A DNA stretch of 64,000 nucleotides, from positions 67,188-131,187 of the forward strand of contig CAJOFY010000002.1 in assembly GCA_905233945.1 (NCBI GenBank), read 5' to 3'. Shown here piece by piece: positions 40,779 through 56,035 of the stretch; position 1 is the stretch's first letter, and every line of letters begins with the position of its first letter. The DNA comes from an uncultured bacterium (GTDB lineage: Bacteria > UBP6 > UBA1177). The notes beneath the pieces are model-generated. The model searched no databases. It saw nothing but the letters and a program-made list of their open reading frames with translations, and was not told the DNA's origin. The position numbers were made by a program, and so were the translations under genes.

Positions 40779-40850
40779 GGGATGGCAGGGAGTTTAGGGA
40801 ATTTAAGGATAGTAGGGAATTTAGGGTGTCTAGGGTATTTAGGGAGTTTT
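40779..40850. repeat. 9-base tandem repeat, eight units
   Basis: Eight consecutive 9-base units run without a gap in register, with consensus GGGAATTTA on the plus strand: GGGATGGCA, GGGAGTTTA, GGGAATTTA, AGGATAGTA, GGGAATTTA, GGGTGTCTA, GGGTATTTA, GGGAGTTTT. It fills most of the gap between the giant lipoprotein's stop and the ASST promoter. It is non-coding on both strands. Confidence 0.85.
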
Positions 40851-40867: not shown

Positions 40868-40888
40868 GGTTCCTGAGCCTGTCGAAGC
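40868..40888. repeat. Short dispersed-repeat-like motif
   Basis: The text TTCCTGAGCCTGTCGAAG is of a kind seen as a scattered intergenic repeat in many bacterial genomes. Only this one copy was seen here, and it may be part of a transcription terminator for the giant gene. Confidence 0.3.
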
Positions 40889-40889
40889 C

Positions 40890-43800
40890 CTACCTCACGC
40901 AGCGGACGTAACGGGAATCTTTTTTAGTTTTATCGCTTGCACCGAAATGACCGGTTGAAAAGTTTATATACAGAGCTGCACTGATATCGGTCATTGAAAC
41001 GGAAGAAGTCCAGAACGGCATTTTAGCAACATCAGGAAGATCTGATGCCGGAGAAGATTTGTCGTCGTTGATGAGAGAGAAAAGCTCGTTTTTATTCGGG
41101 AGACGCCAGTCACTGTAACCGGCATAAGTCAGATTTTCGCAGTAATCAAGCGCTTCCTGCCATGTTATATAACCAAGACCTCGGATTCCCTGCCAGATAA
41201 GACCGCTTGTCGTATCGGTAATTATGGTATCTTCGCCTACTGTTGATACAACAAGAGCAGCTTCTGGCGGTTCTTCACCTATGACACAGCGGTAATATTT
41301 CTTTTTGCTTTTGTTGGCTACACCTGATGATCCTGTCGAAAAATCTATATACCACATACTTTCGGAAGATGCAGATGATTTTGAGGTCCAGAATTCTCCG
41401 GTGCCTGTGAAATAATCGGTGTCTGTTACCGGATTTGTTCTGCTGTTGTCAGTAATTGTGTAGAGTTCCTTTCTGGTCGGGAGTCTCCAGCCGGTTTTCC
41501 CTGCGTAATTCGAGCCGCGGCACTCACTGTCTGCAGTATCCCATGCAGAAGTTGCAGTTTTTATGGTCTGCTGCCACTCAAGCCCCGTGTTGCTGTCAAT
41601 AACTGTTTTTTCGTTTTCAACCGTGCTGTCGATCACGAATTTTTTCGGAGCACAGAAACCGAAAGCTGCATACTGCGAATCCTGGCCGAAGAACTCTTCT
41701 CCTTTCGCCGGACAAATTATTTCTTCCGAATTGTTGTAGCACTTCTCCTGACCGGTACAGATTCTGGCTAAACTGACTTGGGCACACTCGGAAGTTCTGC
41801 TATCCCAGACGTATCCGTTTTCGCAGCCGCAGGAATATTTGTTCCATGCGGAAGCAATACATTCGTATGTCGAATTTTCAACACCTGCACACGGATTTGG
41901 ATCAGCCTCACACGGGCTTGTGCACTCTTTTCCGTTCCAGAACTTGTTTTCTCCGCACGGATTTACGCACTCTCTTCCGTTCCAGATCCCATTGCCGCCG
42001 TTGCAGGTATCCGAACGGACACAACGGACAGAGTCTTCATAAGACGGGGAAGCTCCTGAAACTCCGCCGTCAGAGAAGTTGATACTCCATGCATGGTTTG
42101 AGTAAAGGCGCGTGGAAGATGACCAGAAATAGAGCGAATATCCGTAAGGAATAACTTCCGGGAAGTGTGTCGCCGGATTGTAGCTGTTCATATCGATTAA
42201 TGAAGCAAGCTCGTTTCTGTTGGGCAGTCTCCAGTCGCTGAAACCGGCGTAAGTCAGTTCTTCACAGTATTTGAGGGCATCCTGCCATATCTTTTTATTT
42301 GCATCATCGTATATATCGTATGAGTCAGAACTTCTTTGCCAGATAAGCCCTGTCGTCCTGTCGGTAACGATGTCTTCTGTGCCGACAGTTGTGATGACAA
42401 GATTTTCATCTGTTACATACGGCAGTTCTATTCCTCTGACACAGCGGACATACTGATTTTTGCTGGTTTTAGCTGAATCGCTGACAACTCCTGTGGTTCC
42501 GAATCTGACACGCCATGCCTTATCATTATAGGTGTCCGAAGACCAGACATCATTCGTTACCATAAAATAATCAGTATTCATTGCAGGATTTGATCTGCCT
42601 ATGTCAACGATGGTCTGAAGCTCATTCACGCTCGGAAGCCTCCAGCCGCTTTTCCCTGCGTAGGAAGTGAGTCCGGTGCAGTAGTCATTTGCGCTATCCC
42701 ATGAGTCGGCTGAAACAGCAGTCCGCTGCCACTCAAGACCGGTATTGTTGTCAAAGACGGTCTCTTCGTTTTCTACATCGTTTCTAATTGTAAAACTTTG
42801 CGGAATACAGAAATTTGCAGCCGCATAGTATGCATCCTGACCGAAGAGATCTTCACCGAGTGCAGGACAGTCAGTCTCTTCATGTGAATTGTCGTAGCAC
42901 TTTGTCTGACCGGTGCAGATGTTTCCTAAAGGCAGAGGTTTGTTGCAGCGGTGATCGTGCCAGAAATAGCCGTCAACGCAGCCGCATACATATTCGTTCC
43001 ACGCTGAAGCAGAGCAGGTTTCTGTTGAATTTGCAATGTCGCACGGATTGAAATCACAGGGATTCTGCAGACATTCAGAATCGTGATAGAAATAGTTGTC
43101 AACACATTTGTATCTGCACTCGCTTCCGCTCGGAGTTTCATTGTATTCCGCGTTTTCAGAGGGCCACCACATTTCACCGTTCCAAGTCTGGTTGATCTTG
43201 AAAACTGAGTTCCATTCCGCGTTTGCCGGAAGACCGGAGCATGCAACATTTTCTTTTGTATCGGCAACACACAAATTATTTTTCCAGGTATAGTTCGTGT
43301 CGCATTTAAAGGAGCAGCGGTTGATGTTTTCGTCTTCACTGAACTGCATCTCGTTCGCTCTCGGCATCCAGTCGCCGTCACCCAGACTCCATTCCTGCAC
43401 AATCTGAGAAACTGTCCAGACTGCGTGTCCCGGAAGGGTTCCGGTGCATTGCGCGATTTTCTTGTCAAGCATACACTTCAGCAGATCGTAATCCCAAGTA
43501 TAGTGATCTCTGCATTTGAAGCGGCATTCGGTTGTGCTCGGAGTTTCATTGTATTCCGGAACAGTTGACGGATACCAGTTGCCTTTTCCGTCAGGATACT
43601 GCGTGATTGTTCCGACTGTGTTCCAGACTGCATTGTCAGGCAGAGTGTTGTCGCAGCCTTTGGTTATTTCATCATGAAGAACGCATTTCGCAAGAGAGCT
43701 GTTCCATTCGAAGTTCGTGTAGCATACGCATGAATAGCCGTTTCCGTCTTCTTCCGCAGTGCAGACGCCTGTCGAATTGACTGTGTTCCTGCACGGATCG

Positions 43801-46800: not shown

Positions 46801-48794
46801 GTATAAAGCGCCGCAATCGCACTCCTGAGATCAAGACCGTTTTTGACCGCAGCAACTGCTCCGCCGGCTTTCTTCGTTTTCATTCTGTTGTAGAATTCCG
46901 AAACAAAGAAAAGGTTTTCGAAAAGGTTGAGGTTGCGCTGGTAACCTGTCTCTCTGTTCATAAGCTCGTCAAGATCCGCGCCGAGATCTGCAAGTTTGCT
47001 GCAGGTGAGATAGGAGAGAAGCTCCTCTTTGTCGGCACTATCGGCTTTGTATTTTTCAACACCTTTTTTAATAAACTCAACCGGCGAATAGCCTTGATAG
47101 AATGAGCCGTCGCACCATCTTGAAACTATTGCTTCGACCGGAACTGCAAGGGATGTAGAATCAAGTGTGAAATCGGAGAAATGGCCGGTTTTTGCAATCA
47201 TGACGCTTGAACTTGTCCCGAGCATGATAGGATCACCTGAAGCCGTGCTCATAATCGGGTCGCCTGAAGCTGAAGTCATTATCGGATCGCCCGAAGAAGC
47301 CGACATTATCGGATCACCTGAAGAAGAGTTCATAATCGGGTCTCCTGAAGCTGATGTCATAATGGGATCACCGCTTGCTGAGCGGGCAATCTGCATGATC
47401 GGGTCGCCTGAAGCAGAGAACATTATCGGATCGCCGCTTGCCTCAAGCATGATCGGGTCGCCCGAAGCCGAATCAAGGACATCGTTGGCGTTTCCGCTGC
47501 TTCTCTTAGCCGAAAGCATGATCGGGTCGCCGCCGAAAACAGTCCCAAGTTCATATATGAAATAGAGCGAATCACCTGTGAAAGTAGTTCCCTCAGGACC
47601 GAATTCTATTCTGGAGATCCTGCTTCCGTCACCGGTTCTGATAACCTTGTAAGTCAGCTTTGTTACAGGCGAATTTCCGTTTGTAATGATCGTATTTTTG
47701 GGAATTACCGCATAAATTCCGTGGTCGATGTAGTGCGAAACGTCTTTTGTCATGTCGCTTACGTCGATTGTGCCCGAAACATCTTCAAGAAGATAGAGGA
47801 CAGTCGCCGAATCTTCCGAAATCATGATCGGATCGCCGCTCATTATGGGATCACCGCTCATGATCGGGTCGCCGCTGTCGCTGACAAGTTTCGTGCGGAC
47901 AACGTATTCACCCGGATTTGTTGAAGAAATCTTGAACTCAGCCTTATTGTCGGTTTTGTTCATCGCAGCCCATGAAATCGAAAATCCGGGGGCGATTTTT
48001 GTGCTGCCCCCCTCGATTGCAAAAGGAACTTCGTTGTTTGCCGGATTTTCTTTATCGATTACGACCTCTTTTTTGGCCGCCAGAATTTTGAAACCGTTGA
48101 AAAATTTACGGAATTCAAGGCTTCCGTTCACATCGGCAGCGATTTTTTCAGAAATATTCTTGCTGTCTGTTGAATTCAAATAGGAGGAGAGAAGTTTTTT
48201 GCCTTCCGAAATGCCGGAAAGTTTTGAATAGTCGAGCTCACCCAGCCATTCGCCGGTTCCGAGTTTCGCGTAAGCACGGATTTTTGTTTCGCTTTTCCGC
48301 AGGTCGGAACATGCCGGATCAAGAAGAAGGACTGCGTTCGTGATTTCGGAAATATTGGCAACATGGTCACTCAGACCTTTGAAACAGCTTGTGAAACCGT
48401 TTGCCGTTACACAGTAGCTTTTTGTTGAGGAAATATCGGCATTGAAGGAGTATTTTCCGTCAGAATCTGTAGAAGCAGAAGCCAGAACATCGGTTTTGCC
48501 GCATTCGACAAGAGCAACCTCACGATTTGAAACCTCACTTCCGATCTGATAAGTTCCTGAAATCAGATGGTTTTCCGTTTCTTCAACTTCACCAGAATCA
48601 ACGTCGACATCGGGAACCGTGTCACCGTCATCATCCGCACCCGGAGTAGCGGAATCTTCGTCAACATCGGTGTCGGTAATCATGTCACCGTCAGAATCAG
48701 GAATCTCGTTTTCACCGCCTTTCTTCTTGCCCTTGCTGCACGAAACAGCAAAAATCATGCAGAAAACTGCGAGAACAACAAAAAACTTCTTCAT
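40890..48794 (-). CDS. Giant repeat lipoprotein with GDPIM repeats and six DUF1566 modules
   Basis: The 2634-residue lipoprotein starts after GGAG, with a signal ending FAVSCSKGKKKGG and an Asp-rich linker. GDPIM motifs occur three times at about residues 307-324 and ten times at about 420-525. Between them lies a ZU5-like segment (IEFGPEGTTFTGDSLYFIYE). Two Myxococcus-type repeats (CGNGIVDSAEEC, CGDGVIDNGEGC) lie near 1182-1255. Four copies of a cysteine repeat starting LPxxAxW occur at about 1297, 1715, 1787 and 1855. Six DUF1566 modules form three pairs (about 1412-1651, 1999-2263, 2385-2634), each pair preceded by an ICTGxxKCxNN linker. It is surely surface-exposed; adhesion or ligand binding is inferred. 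The reading frame is intact throughout. Confidence 0.88.
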   Translation of the reverse strand: MKKFFVVLAVFCMIFAVSCSKGKKKGGENEIPDSDGDMITDTDVDEDSATPGADDDGDTVPDVDVDSGEVEETENHLISGTYQIGSEVSNREVALVECGKTDVLASASTDSDGKYSFNADISSTKSYCVTANGFTSCFKGLSDHVANISEITNAVLLLDPACSDLRKSETKIRAYAKLGTGEWLGELDYSKLSGISEGKKLLSSYLNSTDSKNISEKIAADVNGSLEFRKFFNGFKILAAKKEVVIDKENPANNEVPFAIEGGSTKIAPGFSISWAAMNKTDNKAEFKISSTNPGEYVVRTKLVSDSGDPIMSGDPIMSGDPIMISEDSATVLYLLEDVSGTIDVSDMTKDVSHYIDHGIYAVIPKNTIITNGNSPVTKLTYKVIRTGDGSRISRIEFGPEGTTFTGDSLYFIYELGTVFGGDPIMLSAKRSSGNANDVLDSASGDPIMLEASGDPIMFSASGDPIMQIARSASGDPIMTSASGDPIMNSSSGDPIMSASSGDPIMTSASGDPIMSTASGDPIMLGTSSSVMIAKTGHFSDFTLDSTSLAVPVEAIVSRWCDGSFYQGYSPVEFIKKGVEKYKADSADKEELLSYLTCSKLADLGADLDELMNRETGYQRNLNLFENLFFVSEFYNRMKTKKAGGAVAAVKNGLDLRSAIAALYTATTSYNRSATLADMFDSSMIPLTYSGVIPEDYSAEAKKALTGKTDESNKYAATKKEMMIFANYITTSSKGPDFSGVSTALTADQLVCAWFNPETKLAECSKVYAVNEAGHVTADGVEITVAAANEIFTKFFMPFNTRLSDSEKLSLFRTLYLALRYAGTVFYGGSELESLNEKLLETAYLVFDGINRNANAVTIVDTFDASAHTVQVLEGADLETKPYISKVSALTDKIYLKAAASAEVEKVLVKIEAHAFDRVTENTRTYYKPKGELKEKSIVLAPGTIEAGLKPLKELLGSENVDELGSVTGKVTVVATSKISGKTYSTQKVYEFLANSDSDGVETKPVSATLTVFLYDSESHAIPLTANPGMILNPGNKALYPDSTGKVKISGLAPASYTIDAFADGFYAKNAAVNVSAGADFSVEIRLDKEVSGNGDANLELQVKINTEKHPSRVYIQIYDKEMQLVANESTKFVSDSYEKLNIRINSGRYTLLAVGEEMYDYLEAVTVYAGNNTKEITVVAKNACGNGIVDSAEECEPSVSGSNLEVRCGDIYPAATNPDKKAACNKTTCTFDKSQCGKASVCGDGVIDNGEGCDGGSKACSEISGFGSSSGMAPCASNCSDWITKENCSRKTASCGTLPENALWNDGNGKFSQTYNGSKWMPETPEPAARYGLTREECVFSCKKGYKWNENTNECLPDPLSLANICTGETKCFNNTSATNECPAYGTSFFGQDAQYAKLGYCTAHSFEISEDTVVDSFTHYEWQKKASTSAMTWTQADKYCSDLNIGSGSSASWRIPKPQELLTIIDSNKFNPALDTNFFTAQAALWAAEDAKNPGNAWIVTADGALESVADSESNYVLCIRVKESDTASERFDDTADETVKDTESGLMWLKNYTSSKTWQEALSHCENSIAGGQTDWRLPNRNELASLVDYTENSGVMSAFPGIAAKEFWTSTTSTSEPAKAWPVDFESGKISADSKSETKYVLCVRNDSACFGDDCADPCKFDPCRNTVNSTGVCTAEEDGNGYSCVCYTNFEWNSSLAKCVLHDEITKGCDNTLPDNAVWNTVGTITQYPDGKGNWYPSTVPEYNETPSTTECRFKCRDHYTWDYDLLKCMLDKKIAQCTGTLPGHAVWTVSQIVQEWSLGDGDWMPRANEMQFSEDENINRCSFKCDTNYTWKNNLCVADTKENVACSGLPANAEWNSVFKINQTWNGEMWWPSENAEYNETPSGSECRYKCVDNYFYHDSECLQNPCDFNPCDIANSTETCSASAWNEYVCGCVDGYFWHDHRCNKPLPLGNICTGQTKCYDNSHEETDCPALGEDLFGQDAYYAAANFCIPQSFTIRNDVENEETVFDNNTGLEWQRTAVSADSWDSANDYCTGLTSYAGKSGWRLPSVNELQTIVDIGRSNPAMNTDYFMVTNDVWSSDTYNDKAWRVRFGTTGVVSDSAKTSKNQYVRCVRGIELPYVTDENLVITTVGTEDIVTDRTTGLIWQRSSDSYDIYDDANKKIWQDALKYCEELTYAGFSDWRLPNRNELASLIDMNSYNPATHFPEVIPYGYSLYFWSSSTRLYSNHAWSINFSDGGVSGASPSYEDSVRCVRSDTCNGGNGIWNGRECVNPCGENKFWNGKECTSPCEADPNPCAGVENSTYECIASAWNKYSCGCENGYVWDSRTSECAQVSLARICTGQEKCYNNSEEIICPAKGEEFFGQDSQYAAFGFCAPKKFVIDSTVENEKTVIDSNTGLEWQQTIKTATSAWDTADSECRGSNYAGKTGWRLPTRKELYTITDNSRTNPVTDTDYFTGTGEFWTSKSSASSESMWYIDFSTGSSGVANKSKKKYYRCVIGEEPPEAALVVSTVGEDTIITDTTSGLIWQGIRGLGYITWQEALDYCENLTYAGYSDWRLPNKNELFSLINDDKSSPASDLPDVAKMPFWTSSVSMTDISAALYINFSTGHFGASDKTKKDSRYVRCVR
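47200..47535 (-). repeat. Coding GDPIM repeat array (ten copies)
   Basis: Within the giant gene, ten GDPIM motifs are spaced mostly 27-33 bases apart, with Ser/Ala/Thr spacers such as SAS or TSA. The core DNA is kept more constant than the spacers, though codons vary (ATCGGRTCNCC on the plus strand). A second block of three back-to-back copies with an 18-base period lies at 47823-47876. Confidence 0.85.
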
Positions 48795-48900: not shown

Positions 48901-48925
48901 CGGCAGTCTTTTGATTGGAGGAAAC

Positions 48926-49867
48926 ATGGAAAGCGCGGAACTTCAGCAGATTTTAAACAACGTAAAAAACAATATCGCAAAACTTGTAAAAGGGCACGAT
49001 TCAGTCATCACAAAAACGGTCTGTGCCTTCTTTTCAGGCGGACATCTGCTGCTCGAGGATGTTCCGGGAACAGGTAAAACAACGCTGGCGAAAGCTCTCG
49101 CGAAGTCACTCGGAATGAAATTCAACCGCATCCAGTTTACTCCAGATTTAATGCCGTCCGACATTACAGGCGTCTCGATTTACAGCCCGAAAACTTCCGC
49201 GTTTGAGTTCAAAAAAGGGCCTGTTTTTGCCAACATAATCCTTGCCGACGAAATCAACCGCGCCTCTCCGAGAACGCAGTCTGCTCTTCTCGAGGCGATG
49301 GGCGAAGGTCAGGTTAGCACCGATGCCGGGCAGTTTGTCCTCGAAAAGCCGTTTTTCGTCATCGCGACGCAGAACAATATCGAATCGAAAGGCACTTACA
49401 CGCTGCCTGAGTCACAAATGGATCGTTTCGCGATGAAACTTTCGCTGGGTTATGTCTCAGCCGAGGCCGAAATGGAGATTTTAAACGGGCGAGGTTTTGT
49501 TTCAGAGCTTGAAAATCTTGAAGCGGCAGTCTCTTTTGACAAGGCGTGCGAAGCAATCCGCGCTGTCGAAGAAATCAAAGTGAGCGACGAACTTAAATAT
49601 TTCATAATAAAATTAGTCGATTCCACGCGCAGCGCCCAGAACGTAAAACTCGGCGCAAGCCCGAGAGCTGCACTTTCGCTGATGAAAGCCGCTCAGTCAA
49701 CAGCAGCATTCGACGGACGCAGTTTTGTGATTCCCGACGACATTCTCTCGAACGCAGTCCAGGTCCTTGCCCACAGGATAATTCTCGACAATTCCTCTTT
49801 TATTTCAGGAAAATCCAAAGAAAGTGTAATAACTTCGATTCTTGAAAACACTAAAGTGCCAGTGTAA
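48926..49867 (+). CDS. MoxR-family AAA+ ATPase
   Basis: The start at ATG 48926, right after TTGGAGG, gives 313 residues. MoxR motifs are HLLLEDVPGTGKTTLAKALA (Walker A), FANIILADEINRASPRTQSALLEAM (Walker B, positions ~106-130), and sensor 1 in PFFVIATQNNIESKGTYTLPE. The C-terminal lid has SPRAALSLMKAAQSTAAFDGR. MoxR ATPases act as chaperones that usually work with a neighbouring DUF58/vWA protein. Here the next gene is the convergent panB, 14 bases away, so any partner is encoded elsewhere. The partner and target are unknown. Confidence 0.93.
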   Translation: MESAELQQILNNVKNNIAKLVKGHDSVITKTVCAFFSGGHLLLEDVPGTGKTTLAKALAKSLGMKFNRIQFTPDLMPSDITGVSIYSPKTSAFEFKKGPVFANIILADEINRASPRTQSALLEAMGEGQVSTDAGQFVLEKPFFVIATQNNIESKGTYTLPESQMDRFAMKLSLGYVSAEAEMEILNGRGFVSELENLEAAVSFDKACEAIRAVEEIKVSDELKYFIIKLVDSTRSAQNVKLGASPRAALSLMKAAQSTAAFDGRSFVIPDDILSNAVQVLAHRIILDNSSFISGKSKESVITSILENTKVPV

Positions 49868-49881
49868 AATCACAAAAGAGT

Positions 49882-50649
49882 CTATTTTCCCCCTACCACA
49901 TCTTTTCTGTATTCTTTGAGGGCATTTGTCACCAGAGAATCAAGGTTGAGATATTTTTTGAGGAATGACGGATTAAAATCGGCATTCATGCCCAAAAGGT
50001 CATAGATTACAAGCACTTGCCCGTCTGCGTCAGTACCTGCGCCGATTCCGATCGTGGGGATTTTTAATTTTTTGGTGATTTCAGCTGCAAGAGTTTCGGG
50101 AATTCCTTCCAAAACTATCATGTCGGCACCTGCTTTTTCGACTTCAATAGCCGATTCCATGATGAAACTGCGTTCTTCCTTTGTTTTGCCTCGTTTAACA
50201 AAACCACCGAATTTATTGACGAACTGAGGTGTCAAACCGACATGGGCTACGACCGGGATCCCGAAATTTGAAAGAGCTGAAATCAAAGGTGCAACTTCGC
50301 GGCCTCCTTCAAGTTTGACCGCTTCAGCGCCGGCTCTCACAAGTTTTACGGCACTTTCGATCCCTTTTTCAACTGAAGGCTGATAACTTCCGAAAGGCAT
50401 ATCGGCAATCAGGAAAGGATCAGCAGCCCCTCTTTTGACTGCGCTGACATGGTGTGCGACCTCTTCGACCGAAACGTTGAGAGTGTTTTCCTCGCCTTTT
50501 ATAACCATGCCGAGGCTGTCGCCGACAAGAATCGAATCGATCCCGGCTTTTTCGACGAGACGAGCGAAAGATGCGTCATAGCAGGTCACCATCGAAATTT
50601 TTTCAGTTCCTTTCATGCTTTTGAGTTTTGGAAGAGTGACTTTCATCAT
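49882..50649 (-). CDS. panB: 3-methyl-2-oxobutanoate hydroxymethyltransferase
   Basis: PanB makes ketopantoate from alpha-ketoisovalerate and methylene-THF, the first step to pantothenate and CoA. The 255 residues match the family: MVTCYDASFARLVEKAGID, ILVGDSLGMVIKGEENTL, LIADMPFGSYQPS, AVKLEGGREV, VVAHVGLTPQ, and IPTIGIGAGTDADGQVLVIYDLLG. The metal and substrate residues (DS, E in KLEGG, GIGAG) are kept. The ATG overlaps the rsmA stop by 4 bases. No panC or panD is seen nearby. Confidence 0.96.
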   Translation of the reverse strand: MMKVTLPKLKSMKGTEKISMVTCYDASFARLVEKAGIDSILVGDSLGMVIKGEENTLNVSVEEVAHHVSAVKRGAADPFLIADMPFGSYQPSVEKGIESAVKLVRAGAEAVKLEGGREVAPLISALSNFGIPVVAHVGLTPQFVNKFGGFVKRGKTKEERSFIMESAIEVEKAGADMIVLEGIPETLAAEITKKLKIPTIGIGAGTDADGQVLVIYDLLGMNADFNPSFLKKYLNLDSLVTNALKEYRKDVVGGK

Positions 50650-51455
50650 TTTTTTCTCCCGATTTCATCGTTAATTTTCAGAATTGTCTCCCAGTCAAGT
50701 TCCTCGGCGCGCTTCGAAGCGATCCCGAATTTATCCAAAACAGCTGTATTTATTGAATTTATCTTAAAAACATTCTGCAGAGTCTTTCGCCTGTTCGAAA
50801 AAAGAATCCGCACCGTGTCGGCAAAAGCGGAAAGCTCGTTTTTCGCCAAATCATGCCTTTCGAAAGTTACTTTCAAAACCGCGCTTTCGACTTTCGGAGC
50901 GGGATAAAAATCCTCGGCATGAACGGTAAATTCATATTCCGCATGTCCGAGAAGACGAATCAAAGCGGCAACCGGCCCGAAATCGCGGGTTCCCGGCAAA
51001 GCGGCGAATTTCTGCGCGACTTCCTTCTGCAGAAGAAAAACCGCGCCGTCAAGATAGCGGCTTTCAAAGCAGGTATTCATCATGATGAGAGAACTTACCT
51101 GATACGGCAGATTTCCGAAGACAAAACCCCTAACATCTTTATAATATTCAGAAAAATCTATTTTTGAGCCATCTTTGCACGCAATTTTGGCTTTGTCCGA
51201 AAAACGGCTTTCGAGAATTTTCAGCATGTTTTCGTCAAGATCGACAACTGTGAAAGGATCCAGCCCTTTTTCGACTGCTTTTTCGGTGAGCGAGCCGAGT
51301 CCGCCGCCGATCTCGACATAAAAACCTTTGTTTACCGGCACCAGATCAATGATTCGATGAAGAACATCGTCATTGAACAAAAAATTCTGTGAAAACTTCC
51401 TGTCGGCATGAAGAGAAGCTTTCGCGAGATATTTTTTAATTTCAGCCAGATTCAA
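50646..51455 (-). CDS. rsmA: 16S rRNA (adenine(1518/1519)-N6)-dimethyltransferase RsmA
   Basis: RsmA (KsgA) dimethylates two adenines near the 3' end of 16S rRNA during 30S maturation. I choose TTG 51455, preceded by GCAGGTG, giving 269 residues that begin NLAEIKKYLAKASLHADRK. The ATG at 51497 lies inside the rplQ terminator hairpin and is unlikely. Motifs: KFSQNFLFND, the SAM-binding VEIGGGLGSLTE, TVVDLDENML, and the catalytic FGNLPYQVSS. The C-terminal helical domain is present. It is followed by panB with a 4-base overlap. Confidence 0.94.
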   Translation of the reverse strand: MNLAEIKKYLAKASLHADRKFSQNFLFNDDVLHRIIDLVPVNKGFYVEIGGGLGSLTEKAVEKGLDPFTVVDLDENMLKILESRFSDKAKIACKDGSKIDFSEYYKDVRGFVFGNLPYQVSSLIMMNTCFESRYLDGAVFLLQKEVAQKFAALPGTRDFGPVAALIRLLGHAEYEFTVHAEDFYPAPKVESAVLKVTFERHDLAKNELSAFADTVRILFSNRRKTLQNVFKINSINTAVLDKFGIASKRAEELDWETILKINDEIGRKK

Positions 51456-51470
51456 AGCGGCACCTGCAAA

Positions 51471-51497
51471 TAAAAATGGCTGCCCGAAAGCAGCCAT
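51471..51497 (-). terminator. Rho-independent terminator of the ribosomal superoperon
   Basis: A perfect 8-base-pair hairpin, ATGGCTGC-loop-GCAGCCAT (51476-51497), is followed on the minus strand by TTTTATTT. It lies 28 bases after the rplQ stop. A-rich sequence on the other side gives it some bidirectional character. Confidence 0.82.
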
Positions 51498-51524
51498 AAA
51501 AAATCAAAACAAAAACAAGAAAAA

Positions 51525-52001
51525 CTAAGCGTTTGCTTCTTCAGCTTTCGGCTCTGCCGGAGCTTCGGCGACAGGTGCTTCCGGAGCCTTTGTCTCAGCC
51601 TTCGGAGCTGCTTTCTTAGCTTTTTTCTTTACCGACTCGTCTGCGCCAAGGTATTCGATAAGCGCTGTAGGAGCCGCGTCGCCTCTGCGGAATCCGAGTT
51701 TGATTATTCTCGTGTAACCACCTTCTCTGTTGGCAAATCTCGGTCCGAGTTCCTTCAAAAGTTTTGTTATAACTTCTTCTCTGTCCGATTTAACCAGTTT
51801 CGAAAGCTGGGTAATCGAAGCTGTCGTATTCTTCTTTGCAAGAGTGATCGCCTTGTCAGCTACTTTCTGGAGCTCTTTCGCTCTGATCAAAGTTGTCTGA
51901 ATACGTTCACTTTTCACCAGTGAATTCAGCAAGTTACAAAGCATAGCCTCGCGATGCGAGCTATTTCTGTTCAATTTTCTTCCTGCTCTTTTATGTCTCA
52001 T
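51525..52001 (-). CDS. rplQ: 50S ribosomal protein L17 with acidic C-terminal extension
   Basis: The first ~120 residues are standard L17 (MRHKRAGRKLNRNSSHREAM; LVKSERIQTTLIRAKELQK). The last ~40 residues are an Ala/Glu/Pro/Lys tail (KKAAPKAETKAPEAPVAEA), longer than in E. coli. Such tails occur in some lineages and are probably disordered. The ATG overlaps the rpoA stop by 4 bases. It is the last gene of the superoperon, before the hairpin at 51476. Confidence 0.96.
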   Translation of the reverse strand: MRHKRAGRKLNRNSSHREAMLCNLLNSLVKSERIQTTLIRAKELQKVADKAITLAKKNTTASITQLSKLVKSDREEVITKLLKELGPRFANREGGYTRIIKLGFRRGDAAPTALIEYLGADESVKKKAKKAAPKAETKAPEAPVAEAPAEPKAEEANA

Positions 52002-53011
52002 TGTTTGCTCCCTGCGTTCTTTTCTATTTGTTCAATAATTCTGGCATCCGGGAAATTTTCGATTTCCATTCCAAAATGCAATCCCATCTTCATCAAAAGA
52101 ACTTTTATCTCGTTGAGAGATTTTCTTCCGAAATTCTTTGTCTTCAGCATATCGGCCTCTGTCTTGGTAACAAGTTCGCCGATATACTTGATTTCCGCGT
52201 TTTTAAGGCAGTTGTTCGATCTGACACTGAGGTCAAGGTCGTCAATAGTCTTGTAAAGGTTCATATTAACTTCGCCGGTAACATCGGAAGAATTAAGCTC
52301 ATCCACTTCTTCGACTGCAAAACTGATGAAGAACTTCGTGTGTTCTCTCAAAATCATAGCCGCATAAGCCAAAGCATCGCGGGGAGTGAGTGAACCGTCA
52401 GTTTCCAGATCAAAAGTCAGTTTGTCAAACTCAAAACTGTTTTTAACTCTTGCATTGGAAACTTTGTAGTTTGCCCTGACAACCGGAGAGAAAAAAGAAT
52501 CTATCGGAATATATCCTTCGCTGAATATATCCTGATTATGCGCTTCGGACGGAACATAGCCTCTGCCGATTCCGACAAGGAGCTCCATTTCGAAATCAAC
52601 GCCTTCGTCCATTTCGAAAAGAGGAAGATCTTTGTTGAGAATCGTAAGACCTGCTGTTTCCTGAATATCCCCCGCTGTTACAGTTCCTTTGCCGCTTTTC
52701 TTGAGGACAAGATAGTGAAGTTTGTCTTCATGTGCGACAAAACGGATCTGTTTGATGTTGAGGATAATGTCGATAACATCTTCTTTTATTCCGGGAATTG
52801 TTGCAAACTCGTGCTCGACACCTTTGATTTTAACGCCGATAACGGCAGCTCCGCGAAGACTGGAAATAAGGATTCTGCGAAGCGCGTTGCCCAAAGTTAT
52901 GCCGTATCCTTTCATAAGCGGTTCGCAGATGAAGCGGCAGTAATTCGGCCCCTGCTCTCCGATTTTGACCTCTTTCGGCATAATCAATGTTTTCCAATTG
53001 GCTCGAAACAT
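51998..53011 (-). CDS. rpoA: DNA-directed RNA polymerase subunit alpha
   Basis: The start at ATG 53011, after GGAGGG, gives 337 residues. The N-terminal dimerisation domain (EPLMKGYGITLGNALRRILISSLRGAAV; positions ~30-57) and the C-terminal domain (DDLDLSVRSNNCLKNAEI; NFGRKSLNEIKVLLMKMGL) are intact. An earlier in-frame start at 53044 would overlap the end of rpsD. It lies between rpsD and rplQ, the standard order. Confidence 0.97.
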   Translation of the reverse strand: MFRANWKTLIMPKEVKIGEQGPNYCRFICEPLMKGYGITLGNALRRILISSLRGAAVIGVKIKGVEHEFATIPGIKEDVIDIILNIKQIRFVAHEDKLHYLVLKKSGKGTVTAGDIQETAGLTILNKDLPLFEMDEGVDFEMELLVGIGRGYVPSEAHNQDIFSEGYIPIDSFFSPVVRANYKVSNARVKNSFEFDKLTFDLETDGSLTPRDALAYAAMILREHTKFFISFAVEEVDELNSSDVTGEVNMNLYKTIDDLDLSVRSNNCLKNAEIKYIGELVTKTEADMLKTKNFGRKSLNEIKVLLMKMGLHFGMEIENFPDARIIEQIEKNAGSKQ

Positions 53012-53024
53012 CAGAATCCCTCCA

Positions 53025-53660
53025 TTACTTAGAGTAAAGCTCAACTATGAGATTTTCCTTGATATCCTGCGGTAAATCTTCTCTTTCGGGAAGGCGGATA
53101 ACTTTTCCCTTCATTTCGTCTTTATTCAGTTCCAACCATGCCGGAGTCGCGATTCTTGCAGCGATGTTCTCGTCAGCCATGATCTCTTTGAATATCTTAG
53201 CGTCCCTGCTTCCTTCCTTAACTGCAACAACATCTCCTTCCTTTACGATGAAGGACGGAATGTCTGTGCCTTTTCCGTTGACAGAAAAATGTCTGTGGTT
53301 GATAAGCTGTCTTGCCTGAGCTCTGCTGTTCGCGAAACCAAGGCGGTAAACAACGTTGTCAAGTCTGCATTCAAGCATCCTGAGCAAGTTTTCACCGGTT
53401 GCGCCTTTCTTAAGATCAGCTCTCTTGTAGAAAATGCTGAACTGTCTTTCAAGCATACCGTACATTGCTTTTGTTTTCTGCTTTTCACGAAGCTGGATTT
53501 TGTACTCCGTTACTCTTTTTTTCTCACGGCCATGGAGACCGGGCGAATAAGGTTTTCTGTCGAACGAGCATTTGTCGGAATTGCAGCGCTCGCCTTTAAG
53601 AAAAAGTTTTACACCTTCTCTTCTGCAAATTTTGCATTTTGCTTCTTTGTTCTTAGCCAA
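53025..53660 (-). CDS. rpsD: 30S ribosomal protein S4, zinc-binding (C+) form
   Basis: The 211-residue S4 has four N-terminal cysteines (C9, C12, C26, C31) that form a zinc site, then YSPGLHGREKKRVTEYKIQL and the S4 RNA-binding domain (RLDNVVYRLGFANSRAQARQLI). The start codon is TTG, with AAAAGGAGG at five bases. That ribosome site lies in the loop of a small hairpin (53661-53679). S4 regulates its own operon in model bacteria, so this could be an operator; that is inference. Confidence 0.97.
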   Translation of the reverse strand: MAKNKEAKCKICRREGVKLFLKGERCNSDKCSFDRKPYSPGLHGREKKRVTEYKIQLREKQKTKAMYGMLERQFSIFYKRADLKKGATGENLLRMLECRLDNVVYRLGFANSRAQARQLINHRHFSVNGKGTDIPSFIVKEGDVVAVKEGSRDAKIFKEIMADENIAARIATPAWLELNKDEMKGKVIRLPEREDLPQDIKENLIVELYSK

Positions 53661-53684
53661 AGCTTCCTCCTTTTAAGCTAAAAG
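53661..53684 (-). promoter_or_regulatory. Possible translational operator at rpsD
   Basis: On the mRNA strand AGCTT-AAAAGGAGG-AAGCT puts the ribosome site in a loop next to the TTG start. The overlapping CTTTTA-GCT-TAAAAG forms a second, mutually exclusive hairpin. Both stems are short (5 and 6 base pairs). Confidence 0.35.
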
Positions 53685-53702
53685 TTTACACTAAACAACG
53701 AA

Positions 53703-54083
53703 TTAAACTCTTCTTTTCTTTTTAGGACGACAACCGTTGTGCGGTATCGGAGTGATATCTCTAAGAAGTGTTACGTTGTAACCGATATTTGCGAATCCTC
53801 TGATCGCAGCTTCTCTTCCGCTTCCCGGACCTTTTACGAAAACGCTCAAAGTCTTGAGACCGTATTCCTGAGCCTTTTTGCCGGCATCTTCAGCAGCCAT
53901 CTGAGCAGCGTAGGGAGTGCTCTTCTTGCTGCCGCGGAATCCTTTGAGACCTGCGCTCGACCATGACAGAACGTTGCCGCTTACATCAGTGATTGTAACA
54001 ATCGTGTTGTTGAAACTGCACTGAATATAGGCAAGTCCGGTCTGAATATTCTTTTTAACTCTTTTCTTTTTTTCAGGTGCCAT
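53703..54083 (-). CDS. rpsK: 30S ribosomal protein S11
   Basis: The 126-residue S11 is clear from [54 protein letters not shown] and the tail [18 protein letters not shown]. It forms the 30S platform. It lies between rpsM and rpsD as usual. Confidence 0.98.
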
Positions 54084-54102
54084 ACTCTCTCTCCTTCAAC
54101 TA

Positions 54103-54471
54103 TTATTTTTTCTTTTTCATAAGATTGCGTCTCGGGCCCTTTCTCGTTCTTGCATTGGTGCGCGTACGCTGACCTCTGCACGGAAGGCCTCTTCTGTGTC
54201 TGCGGCCTCTGTAGCTGCCGAGATCCATCAATCTTTTGATGTTCATAATAGTTTCTTTTCTAAGATCACCTTCGACCGTGTATTTCTGATCGATAATGGC
54301 TCTGATCTTGATAGCCATCGGCTCATCGACATCATCACTTTTTATATTTCTGTCAATGCCGGCTTCATCAAGTATTTTCTGAGCACTCGTTCTGCCTATG
54401 CCGTATACATAAGTCAGGGCGATTTCCATTCTCTTCTTCCTCGGAAGATCAATTCCTGCAATACGAACCAA
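54103..54471 (-). CDS. rpsM: 30S ribosomal protein S13
   Basis: The 122-residue S13 begins [20 protein letters not shown] and has [16 protein letters not shown] and [20 protein letters not shown]. It contacts the P-site tRNA and the 50S head bridge. The start is TTG at 54471, preceded by a perfect AGGAGGTGA, which decides the start. Confidence 0.97.
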
Positions 54472-54503
54472 GTGTCACCTCCTCTTTTTTCGCGACAACT
54501 ATA

Positions 54504-54617
54504 TTAACCTTGTTTTTGTTTATGCTTAGGGTTCTCGCATATAACTCTGAGAATACCTTTTCTCTTAACGATTTTGCATTTTGAGCATATCTTTTTTACC
54601 GAAGCTCTTACTTTCAT
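54504..54617 (-). CDS. rpmJ: 50S ribosomal protein L36
   Basis: A short 37-residue gene: [20 protein letters not shown], then [17 protein letters not shown]. It has the CxxC...C...H zinc pattern of the C+ form of L36. It sits between infA and rpsM, its normal place, with GGAGAGAG before the ATG. Confidence 0.96.
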
Positions 54618-54627
54618 CTCTCTCTCC

Positions 54628-54885
54628 TTAATTATTCTGATTAGCGTTGTTAGCGTTATTGCTGCTTTTCATTCTGTGAATGATCCTTCCTCTTGTCAGA
54701 TCGTAAGGCGAAAGCTCGATCTGCACTTTGTCGCCCGGCAGAATGCGGATGAAATACTTGCGCATTTTTCCCGAAATGTGAGCCAGAACCGAGTGGCCGT
54801 TTTCCAAAGCCACTCTGAACATAGCGTTCGGCAGAGTGTCAACTATCGTTCCTTCTACAATGATGCCTTCTTCCTTGTTGCTCAT
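54628..54885 (-). CDS. infA: Translation initiation factor IF-1 with Asn-rich tail
   Basis: IF-1 binds the A site of the 30S subunit during initiation. The 85 residues contain the full OB fold: [39 protein letters not shown] and [20 protein letters not shown]. The normal protein ends near residue 73; here [12 protein letters not shown] is added. The tail looks like a recent low-complexity extension. It lies 7 bases after secY; adk and map are not between them. Confidence 0.97.
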
Positions 54886-54892
54886 CGGGAAA

Positions 54893-56035
54893 CTATCCTC
54901 TTCTGCTTTTTATAAGAGAGCCTTTACCGCCGATGGAGAAACCTTCATAGTTGTTGCTGATGAGGTAACTCTCGATCTGGGAAGCCATATCCATCGCGAC
55001 ACCGACAACAATGAGTATCGAAGTTCCGCCCATGTAGAACGGAAGTCCCATTTTGTTTCTGAGCAGATCCGGCAGCATGCAGACAGCGCAGAGATAAATC
55101 GCGCCGCCGAACGTGATTCTCGAAAGGACCGTGTTGATGTATGCAACAGTCTCTTTTCCAGGTCTGATTCCGGGAATGTATCCGCCCTGCTTGTTTATGT
55201 TCTCCGCAACATCTTCAGTCTTGAACTGAATGAAAGTATAGAAGAACGCGAAGAAAATTATAAGGGCAAGATAAAGAAGGTTGTAGAGCCATCCGCCCGG
55301 ATTAAGCCATGCCTGAAGCGATCCCATGCTGAAATTGAAGAAATTGGAAACCGTAGCAGGGAAAACCAGAAGCGCACTCGCGAAAATCGGCGGAATAACG
55401 CCGGAAACGTTGATTCTGAGCGGCAGATGAGAATTCTGGATCTGCCTTGCGCCGCCGTTGGATCTTCTCGCATACTGAACCGGAATTCTTCTCTGCGAAC
55501 TTTCGACAAATACGATTACCGCGAAAGTGACGACCATAACCAGAACGAATATAACGACCTGATGCGGCTGAATCATTCCTTCTTTAAGGTATTTGCCCAT
55601 ATCGAAGAACATTCTCGGGAAACGTGCCACGATCGATGCGAAGATGATGAGTGAAACACCGTTTCCGATACCGCGGTCGGTAATCTGCTCACCGAGCCAC
55701 ATAAGGAAAAGTGTTCCGGCAGTCAGAGTGATGACCGTGAGAATCCTGAAGAACCAGCCCGGATTGTTGACGACAACTTCGCCCGCAGATCCGGTAAGGC
55801 TTTCAAGGAACTTCGACATCATGAAGCCCTGAACCAGACACAAAATAACTGTGCCGTATCTCGTCCACTGGGTTATCTTTTTATATCCCTGTTCTCCTTC
55901 TTTCTGCCATTCGCCTATCTGCGGAACAATTACCGCAAGAAGCGACATGACGATCGAGGAACTGATGTAGGGCATGATTCCGAGCGCGAATATCGAAAGG
56001 TTTTCCAAAGCACCGCCGCCGAACATATTGAACAT
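54893..56035 (-). CDS. secY: Protein translocase subunit SecY, part after the frameshift
   Basis: This 380-residue frame covers SecY from the first periplasmic region to the C-terminus. It includes [68 protein letters not shown] and the tail [18 protein letters not shown]. About nine of the ten membrane helices are present. The first helix is encoded in a different frame just upstream (56039-56192). The ATG at 56035 is an internal Met of the conserved MFNMF motif, not a natural start. SecY is essential, so a sequencing or assembly error is more likely than real loss. Confidence 0.9.

Follow-up and report, generated by a model that had tools for sequence, protein, structure and literature searches.

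The window (the whole 64,000-nucleotide stretch of DNA analysed here) comes from the genome of a UBP6-like bacterium and contains the gene of a giant lipoprotein that carries arrays of the pentapeptide GDPIM (Table 1). The first-pass annotation had reported 13 copies in this 2634-residue protein, and we located all 13 on the minus strand between 47223 and 47873 (residues 308-524), each an exact copy, in agreement with its coordinates and counts. Shuffled sequence, even with two mismatches allowed, averaged 3.8 matches and never exceeded 10 in 100 shuffles. The first three copies (residues 308, 314 and 320) stand back to back with a period of 18 bases, as had also been described. They are followed by an isolated copy at residue 422 and by nine units at residues 445, 454, 463, 475, 484, 493, 502, 511 and 520, so that successive spacings are 6, 6, 102, 23, 9, 9, 12, 9, 9, 9, 9 and 9 residues. 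After the isolated copy, the periods are 69, 27, 27, 36, 27, 27, 27, 27 and 27 bases; of the spacer periods of mostly 27-33 bases described earlier, that of 27 bases is common, but no 33-base period was found.

Table 1. Features of the giant lipoprotein gene in the window
Feature	Position	Strand	Basis or remark
Giant lipoprotein gene, 2634 aa	40890..48794	(-)	Signal peptide, lipobox, PKD-like domain, ZU5-like domain, Lcl_C domains
Signal peptide and lipobox (MKKFFVVLAVFCMIFAVSC); predicted export and lipid anchor	48738..48794	(-)	Sequence
PKD-like beta-sandwich domain; the first array is predicted to lie in a hairpin that links two of its strands	47781..48077	(-)	AlphaFold2, Foldseek
First array, three back-to-back SGDPIM units	47823..47873	(-)	
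ZU5-like segment preceding the second array	47535..47777	(-)	hhalign against ZU5 lipoprotein profile
Isolated GDPIM copy (VFGGDPIMLSA) that opens the second array region; preceding residue Gly	47517..47531	(-)	
Second array, nine GDPIM units, most of them 9 residues apart; preceding residue Ser in all	47223..47462	(-)	
Strand GHFSDFTL, 3' of the second array	47163..47186	(-)	HF[ST] resembles the PIDD ZU5 autocleavage site HF/S
Best-scoring of six Lcl_C (PF07603) stretches, C-terminal part	42015..42371	(-)	Pfam

Arrays are predicted by structural modelling to be positioned in loops between the strands of their host domains. In the AlphaFold2 model of the window protein, the PKD-like domain has pLDDT values mostly of 70-90 outside the array, and Foldseek matched it to the PKD-like domain of ColH (4u6t; probability 1.00, TM 0.59 by target length, E 0.03). 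The first array is absent or shorter in several orthologues, in which a plain turn takes its place. The second array is modelled between strands of the ZU5-like domain with pLDDT below 40. Both arrays had been linked to a ZU5-like segment: the second indeed follows it, but the first sits in the separate PKD-like domain. Array-bearing related proteins match Pfam ZU5 (PF00791) above cut-off (29.9 bits against a cut-off of 21 in paralogue L009), but the segment in the window protein matched the ZU5 lipoprotein profile weakly (hhalign probability 27%, E 7e-4) and received no call for PF00791.

Beside the giant lipoprotein gene, at 48911-56035, translations read by eye point to a MoxR-like AAA gene and a translation cluster with KsgA-like, L17-like, RNA polymerase alpha, S4-like and SecY-like open reading frames. 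On the other side, CCTGAGCCTGTCGAAG lies just past the 3' end of the gene (40872-40887), with five more copies clustered on contig C20 of the same genome, and the gap after the gene holds seven near-copies of a 9-base unit (AGGGAATTT-like) with an 18-base super-period (40787-40849).

Conservation of the pentapeptide

Across approximately 950 units, 71 of the 96 possible synonymous 15-mers were in use, and the 13 copies of the window protein show nine different 15-base codings. One-residue variants in or near the arrays numbered 20, half of them GDPVM, in loci that were fetched by exact matches, which inflates conservation somewhat; most units are not those that triggered the search. So many spellings with so few variants show that selection keeps the peptide. 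The GDPIM peptide is thus under purifying selection, as the first-pass annotation had proposed from the varying codons. Among orthologues of the giant lipoprotein, the motif codons differed by 18-28 synonymous and 0-13 non-synonymous changes and the spacers by 9-18 and 10-24, respectively, counts that are approximate because a repeat was aligned automatically.

In ZU5 arrays of seven or eight units, the units hold their position across genes, with LNA early and MTT last; across ZU5 genes, the identity of spacers at the same position was 0.53 against 0.40. This positional identity indicates that the arrays have not been homogenised recently. Some arrays are irregularly spaced (6, 9, 10, 12, 13, 17, 23 or 24 residues); distances of 6, 9 and 18 residues recur frequently, and units that have lost the motif often retain their length.

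DNA slippage, or a selfish coding repeat devoid of peptide function, would account for the variation in copy number among orthologues (5 to 21) and for the nearly identical units of two outliers, L102 and L150, which may be recent tandem duplications. However, an origin of this kind is strongly disfavoured by the codon data, in which most synonymous spellings are used and the peptide stays fixed, the units are old and positionally conserved, and the pattern read backwards gave no match across the order. We regard it as extremely unlikely.

Homologues with missing or decayed repeats had been named as evidence against a function. In the genus, a Pfam ZU5 match was found in 14 of 15 genomes, and 28 of the 30 ZU5 proteins fetched keep 3-8 copies; decay of the repeats is rare among the ZU5 proteins sampled. 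The two proteins devoid of copies are L247, which lies near a contig end, and L161 of genome G013, a motif-free homologue whose genome has no copy anywhere. L161 is the sole ZU5 lipoprotein of G013 and has a different, non-repeated insert at the site where other genomes have the array.

Coordination of the preceding residue within genomes

The residue directly before GDPIM, here called x, is coordinated within a genome, across unrelated genes. It is Ser in 54 of 57 copies in the window genome, Gln in 25/25 in JAGLDR, Ser in 15/15 in JAGOEX and Leu or Met in 37/41 in JAGAAT; elsewhere it is mostly Ala or Gly. Pairs of genes within a genome shared x in 291 cases, against a mean of 163.5 and a maximum of 211 in 5000 shuffles; this comparison ignores the shared ancestry of genes within a genome, and part of the coherence therefore reflects the descent of paralogues. 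Three groups, giant type 1 (Gly in orthologues), giant type 2 (Ala in orthologues) and the short ZU5 proteins (Ala in orthologues), all have Ser in the window genome. In several rumen genomes, Ala and Gly coexist as x, split by gene family.

Set against the caveat of paralogue descent, x in the window protein differs from the orthologues at 9-11 of 11-12 sites, and the spacers of the giant lipoprotein are still partly shared with them (LEA, FSA and QIARSA are kept). The Ser codons at x include both AGC and TCN, which speaks against one unit having simply been copied over the rest.

Metal binding had been suggested earlier for the regular Met/Asp/Pro pattern, and no positive evidence for it emerged. 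A role of the repeated Met and Asp residues in binding metal, or in taking up oxidants as a methionine sink, would be in keeping with the near invariance of these two residues. However, Gly and Pro are equally invariant, which coordination alone does not explain, and the coordinated switching of x is left without an explanation, making a metal or redox site very improbable.

Distribution and host proteins

The window genome has 57 GDPIM copies in seven array genes on six contigs. Within the same order, copies were found in 24 of the 25 genomes searched, the window genome included: G007 has three, 23 genomes have 6-114, and G013, which is 97% complete and has no giant lipoprotein, has none. The rest of the phylum, represented by three genomes (G025-G027), yielded no GDPIM and, in a search run with no positive control, no ZU5 match; more distant genomes had at most two copies. 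A contig scan across 84,980 species sets a lower bound on the taxonomic spread. Matches listed outside the order included at least the small proteins of rumen Spirochaetes (L047, L055, L060, L086, L117, L121, L124 and L125), with weaker matches in Bacteroidales and Bacillota. In the Spirochaete family, only these eight of the 119 genomes searched have at least four copies. Bacteroidales arrays are rare (1/393 genomes sampled, the query genome itself), for which reason L078, L102 and L123 are weak cases. Plasmid and phage collections gave no meaningful match, and the sole viral-contig match had a single GDPIM in the open reading frame examined.

Seven of the Spirochaete proteins (L047, L055, L060, L117, L121, L124 and L125) have approximately 120-140 residues and consist largely of GDPIM units. 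A Spirochaete protein was modelled by AlphaFold2 with pLDDT near 90 and short strands beginning at PIM, although AlphaFold can be over-confident on repeats. This model, together with the common spacings and the preserved length of motif-less units, would suit a structural repeat, as in the repetitive strand structure suggested by the first-pass annotation, either a beta-solenoid or meander with a turn at xGD and a strand at PIM, or arrays of different proteins that stack and knit a surface coat. Stacking of identical residues would require x to match in such a structure, and self-association would likewise account for the matching of x across the genome. However, the array of the window protein is predicted to be disordered, spacings are mixed inside one array, and the Spirochaete model had no PDB fold match at E 0.001. 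A structural or self-assembling repeat is the foremost rival to the ligand array proposed below; it is possible but on the whole unlikely.

The array hosts are unrelated proteins, predicted to be exported: ZU5 lipoproteins, the giant lipoprotein, an alpha-2-macroglobulin (L069), amylase-like (L062), sulfatase-modifying-factor-like (L142; FGE-sulfatase-like) and coiled-coil (L031) proteins and the small Spirochaete proteins. A lipobox-like motif is present in 124 of the 131 array proteins whose N-terminus lies within the locus. ZU5 is the commonest host domain, and several hosts carry the array without it. HF[ST] follows 104 of 125 arrays, and HYS follows 11.

These ends raise the question of processing. 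A protease would cut within or beside every unit, for instance following x or Met; alternatively, the ZU5 domain would cut itself at HF/[ST] just past the array, which would then serve as a release hinge. In PIDD, self-cleavage takes place at HF/S following each ZU5 domain (PMC3210808), bacterial surface proteins have been proposed to contain ZU5 autopeptidases (PMC3482391), and 6 of 7 aligned Spirochaete proteins have an exact GDPIM C-terminus. However, the CxH motif of the superfamily (PMC3482391) was not seen in the MTTGHF[ST] ends, which have Thr two residues before His. A single cut would leave most of the many sites superfluous, and several hosts have no ZU5 domain; both points weigh against processing as the main role, and we consider it possible but improbable as the explanation of the arrays.

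A proposed ligand array and its relation to known systems

We propose that the arrays are multivalent xGDPIM ligands read by a trans-acting partner, to which we assign a probability of about 45%. In this proposal, xGDPIM would be a portable short linear motif that exported proteins present many times over on extended loops or tails. A dedicated partner acting in trans would read the motif, and its pocket for x would differ between genomes; this partner may be a receptor, a scaffold or a processing enzyme, located in the envelope or in the extracellular space. We infer that this partner exists, binds x and lies outside the cytoplasm. A fixed pentapeptide on unrelated hosts, with irregular spacing and a genome-wide x, is best explained by a trans-acting reader with a pocket that meets x, and the varying copy number and spacing are as expected for avidity and not for one rigid structure. 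The motif may well serve as a docking tag for a partner not described so far, given that the word itself is retained exactly and its preceding residue changes in concert throughout whole genomes. Against the proposal stand the coexistence of Ala and Gly as x in several rumen genomes and the ordered strands predicted for the Spirochaete array. The search for a candidate partner was negative: clustering of the genes that neighbour 120 array loci revealed no shared family beyond local synteny.

More tentatively, the xGDPIM tags may form a surface recognition or assembly code. A common factor would read them; its specificity for x would have shifted between lineages and forced joint changes of the sites, and the tag would have passed between phyla that share a habitat. 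A five-residue word on diverse exported proteins, with x switching genome-wide, is what an undiscovered reader would be expected to leave behind. Identifying this reader would uncover a system for surface assembly, sorting or adhesion in an uncultured lineage of ruminant guts and sediments, and the coordinated switching of x would offer a natural record of coevolution between motif and reader. Array-bearing and array-free relatives can be compared for a partner gene, which provides a ready handle.

Multivalent motif arrays on surface proteins are already known as a kind. The GDPIM array itself matches no Pfam or NCBIfam family, and a literature search on GDPIM returned no relevant paper and no description of the array; as a type, the tandem GDPIM peptide array appears to be undescribed so far. 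The fibronectin-binding repeats of FnBPA and SpsD (tandem beta-zipper) present many copies of a short motif on an extended surface region and are multivalent and read by a partner (PMC7343985, PMC7480013), much as proposed here for the GDPIM arrays. The GDPIM arrays differ in that motif and hosts are unrelated to these, the array is placed by models in loops of folded domains, many unrelated hosts occur per genome, and x switches genome-wide. By AlphaFold2, the array is disordered in the window protein and ordered in the Spirochaete protein.

Every named family whose defining feature was tested failed or did not decide. The GDPIM hosts resemble autoproteolytic ZU5 domains (PIDD, bacterial surface proteins) in that ZU5 is their commonest domain and HF[ST] follows the array, but the GDPIM array also occurs in proteins that have no ZU5; we found no description in the literature of a ZU5 domain carrying a repeat array. 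The GDPH motif of VWD domains shares Gly-Asp-Pro with GDPIM and likewise occurs in exported beta-sandwich proteins. Its autocleavage needs the His and makes use of a VWD context, and mutation of the His inhibits cleavage (PMC10880436). Self-cleavage of this type, raised by the first-pass annotation, was rejected, as Ile replaces the required His and Pfam gave no VWD match. GDPH-type self-cleavage is disfavoured, as is sortase anchoring: PF04203 was absent from 15 genomes, 14 of them array-bearing, and the control genomes were positive.

The calcium beta-roll of RTX proteins, too, repeats every nine residues and contains Gly, Asp and a hydrophobic position. The GDPIM units do not follow GGxGxDxUx, reading instead xxxxGDPIM with Ser/Ala/Thr/Asn spacers, 6-residue periods are usual in other array families, and neither Pfam nor NCBIfam called RTX. 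Searches of the PDB by sequence and fold with the Spirochaete protein returned nothing significant, the only sequence match being a weak one (E 0.65) to a lipase region that resembles RTX repeats. The bait region of alpha-2-macroglobulins was set aside since the array of L069 precedes MG2 (289-375) and the BRD match lies at 595-741. Finally, L019 has a single GDPIM inside a FabZ-like segment (HFPGDPIMPGVL), where the FabZ motif probably overlaps the array word by chance.
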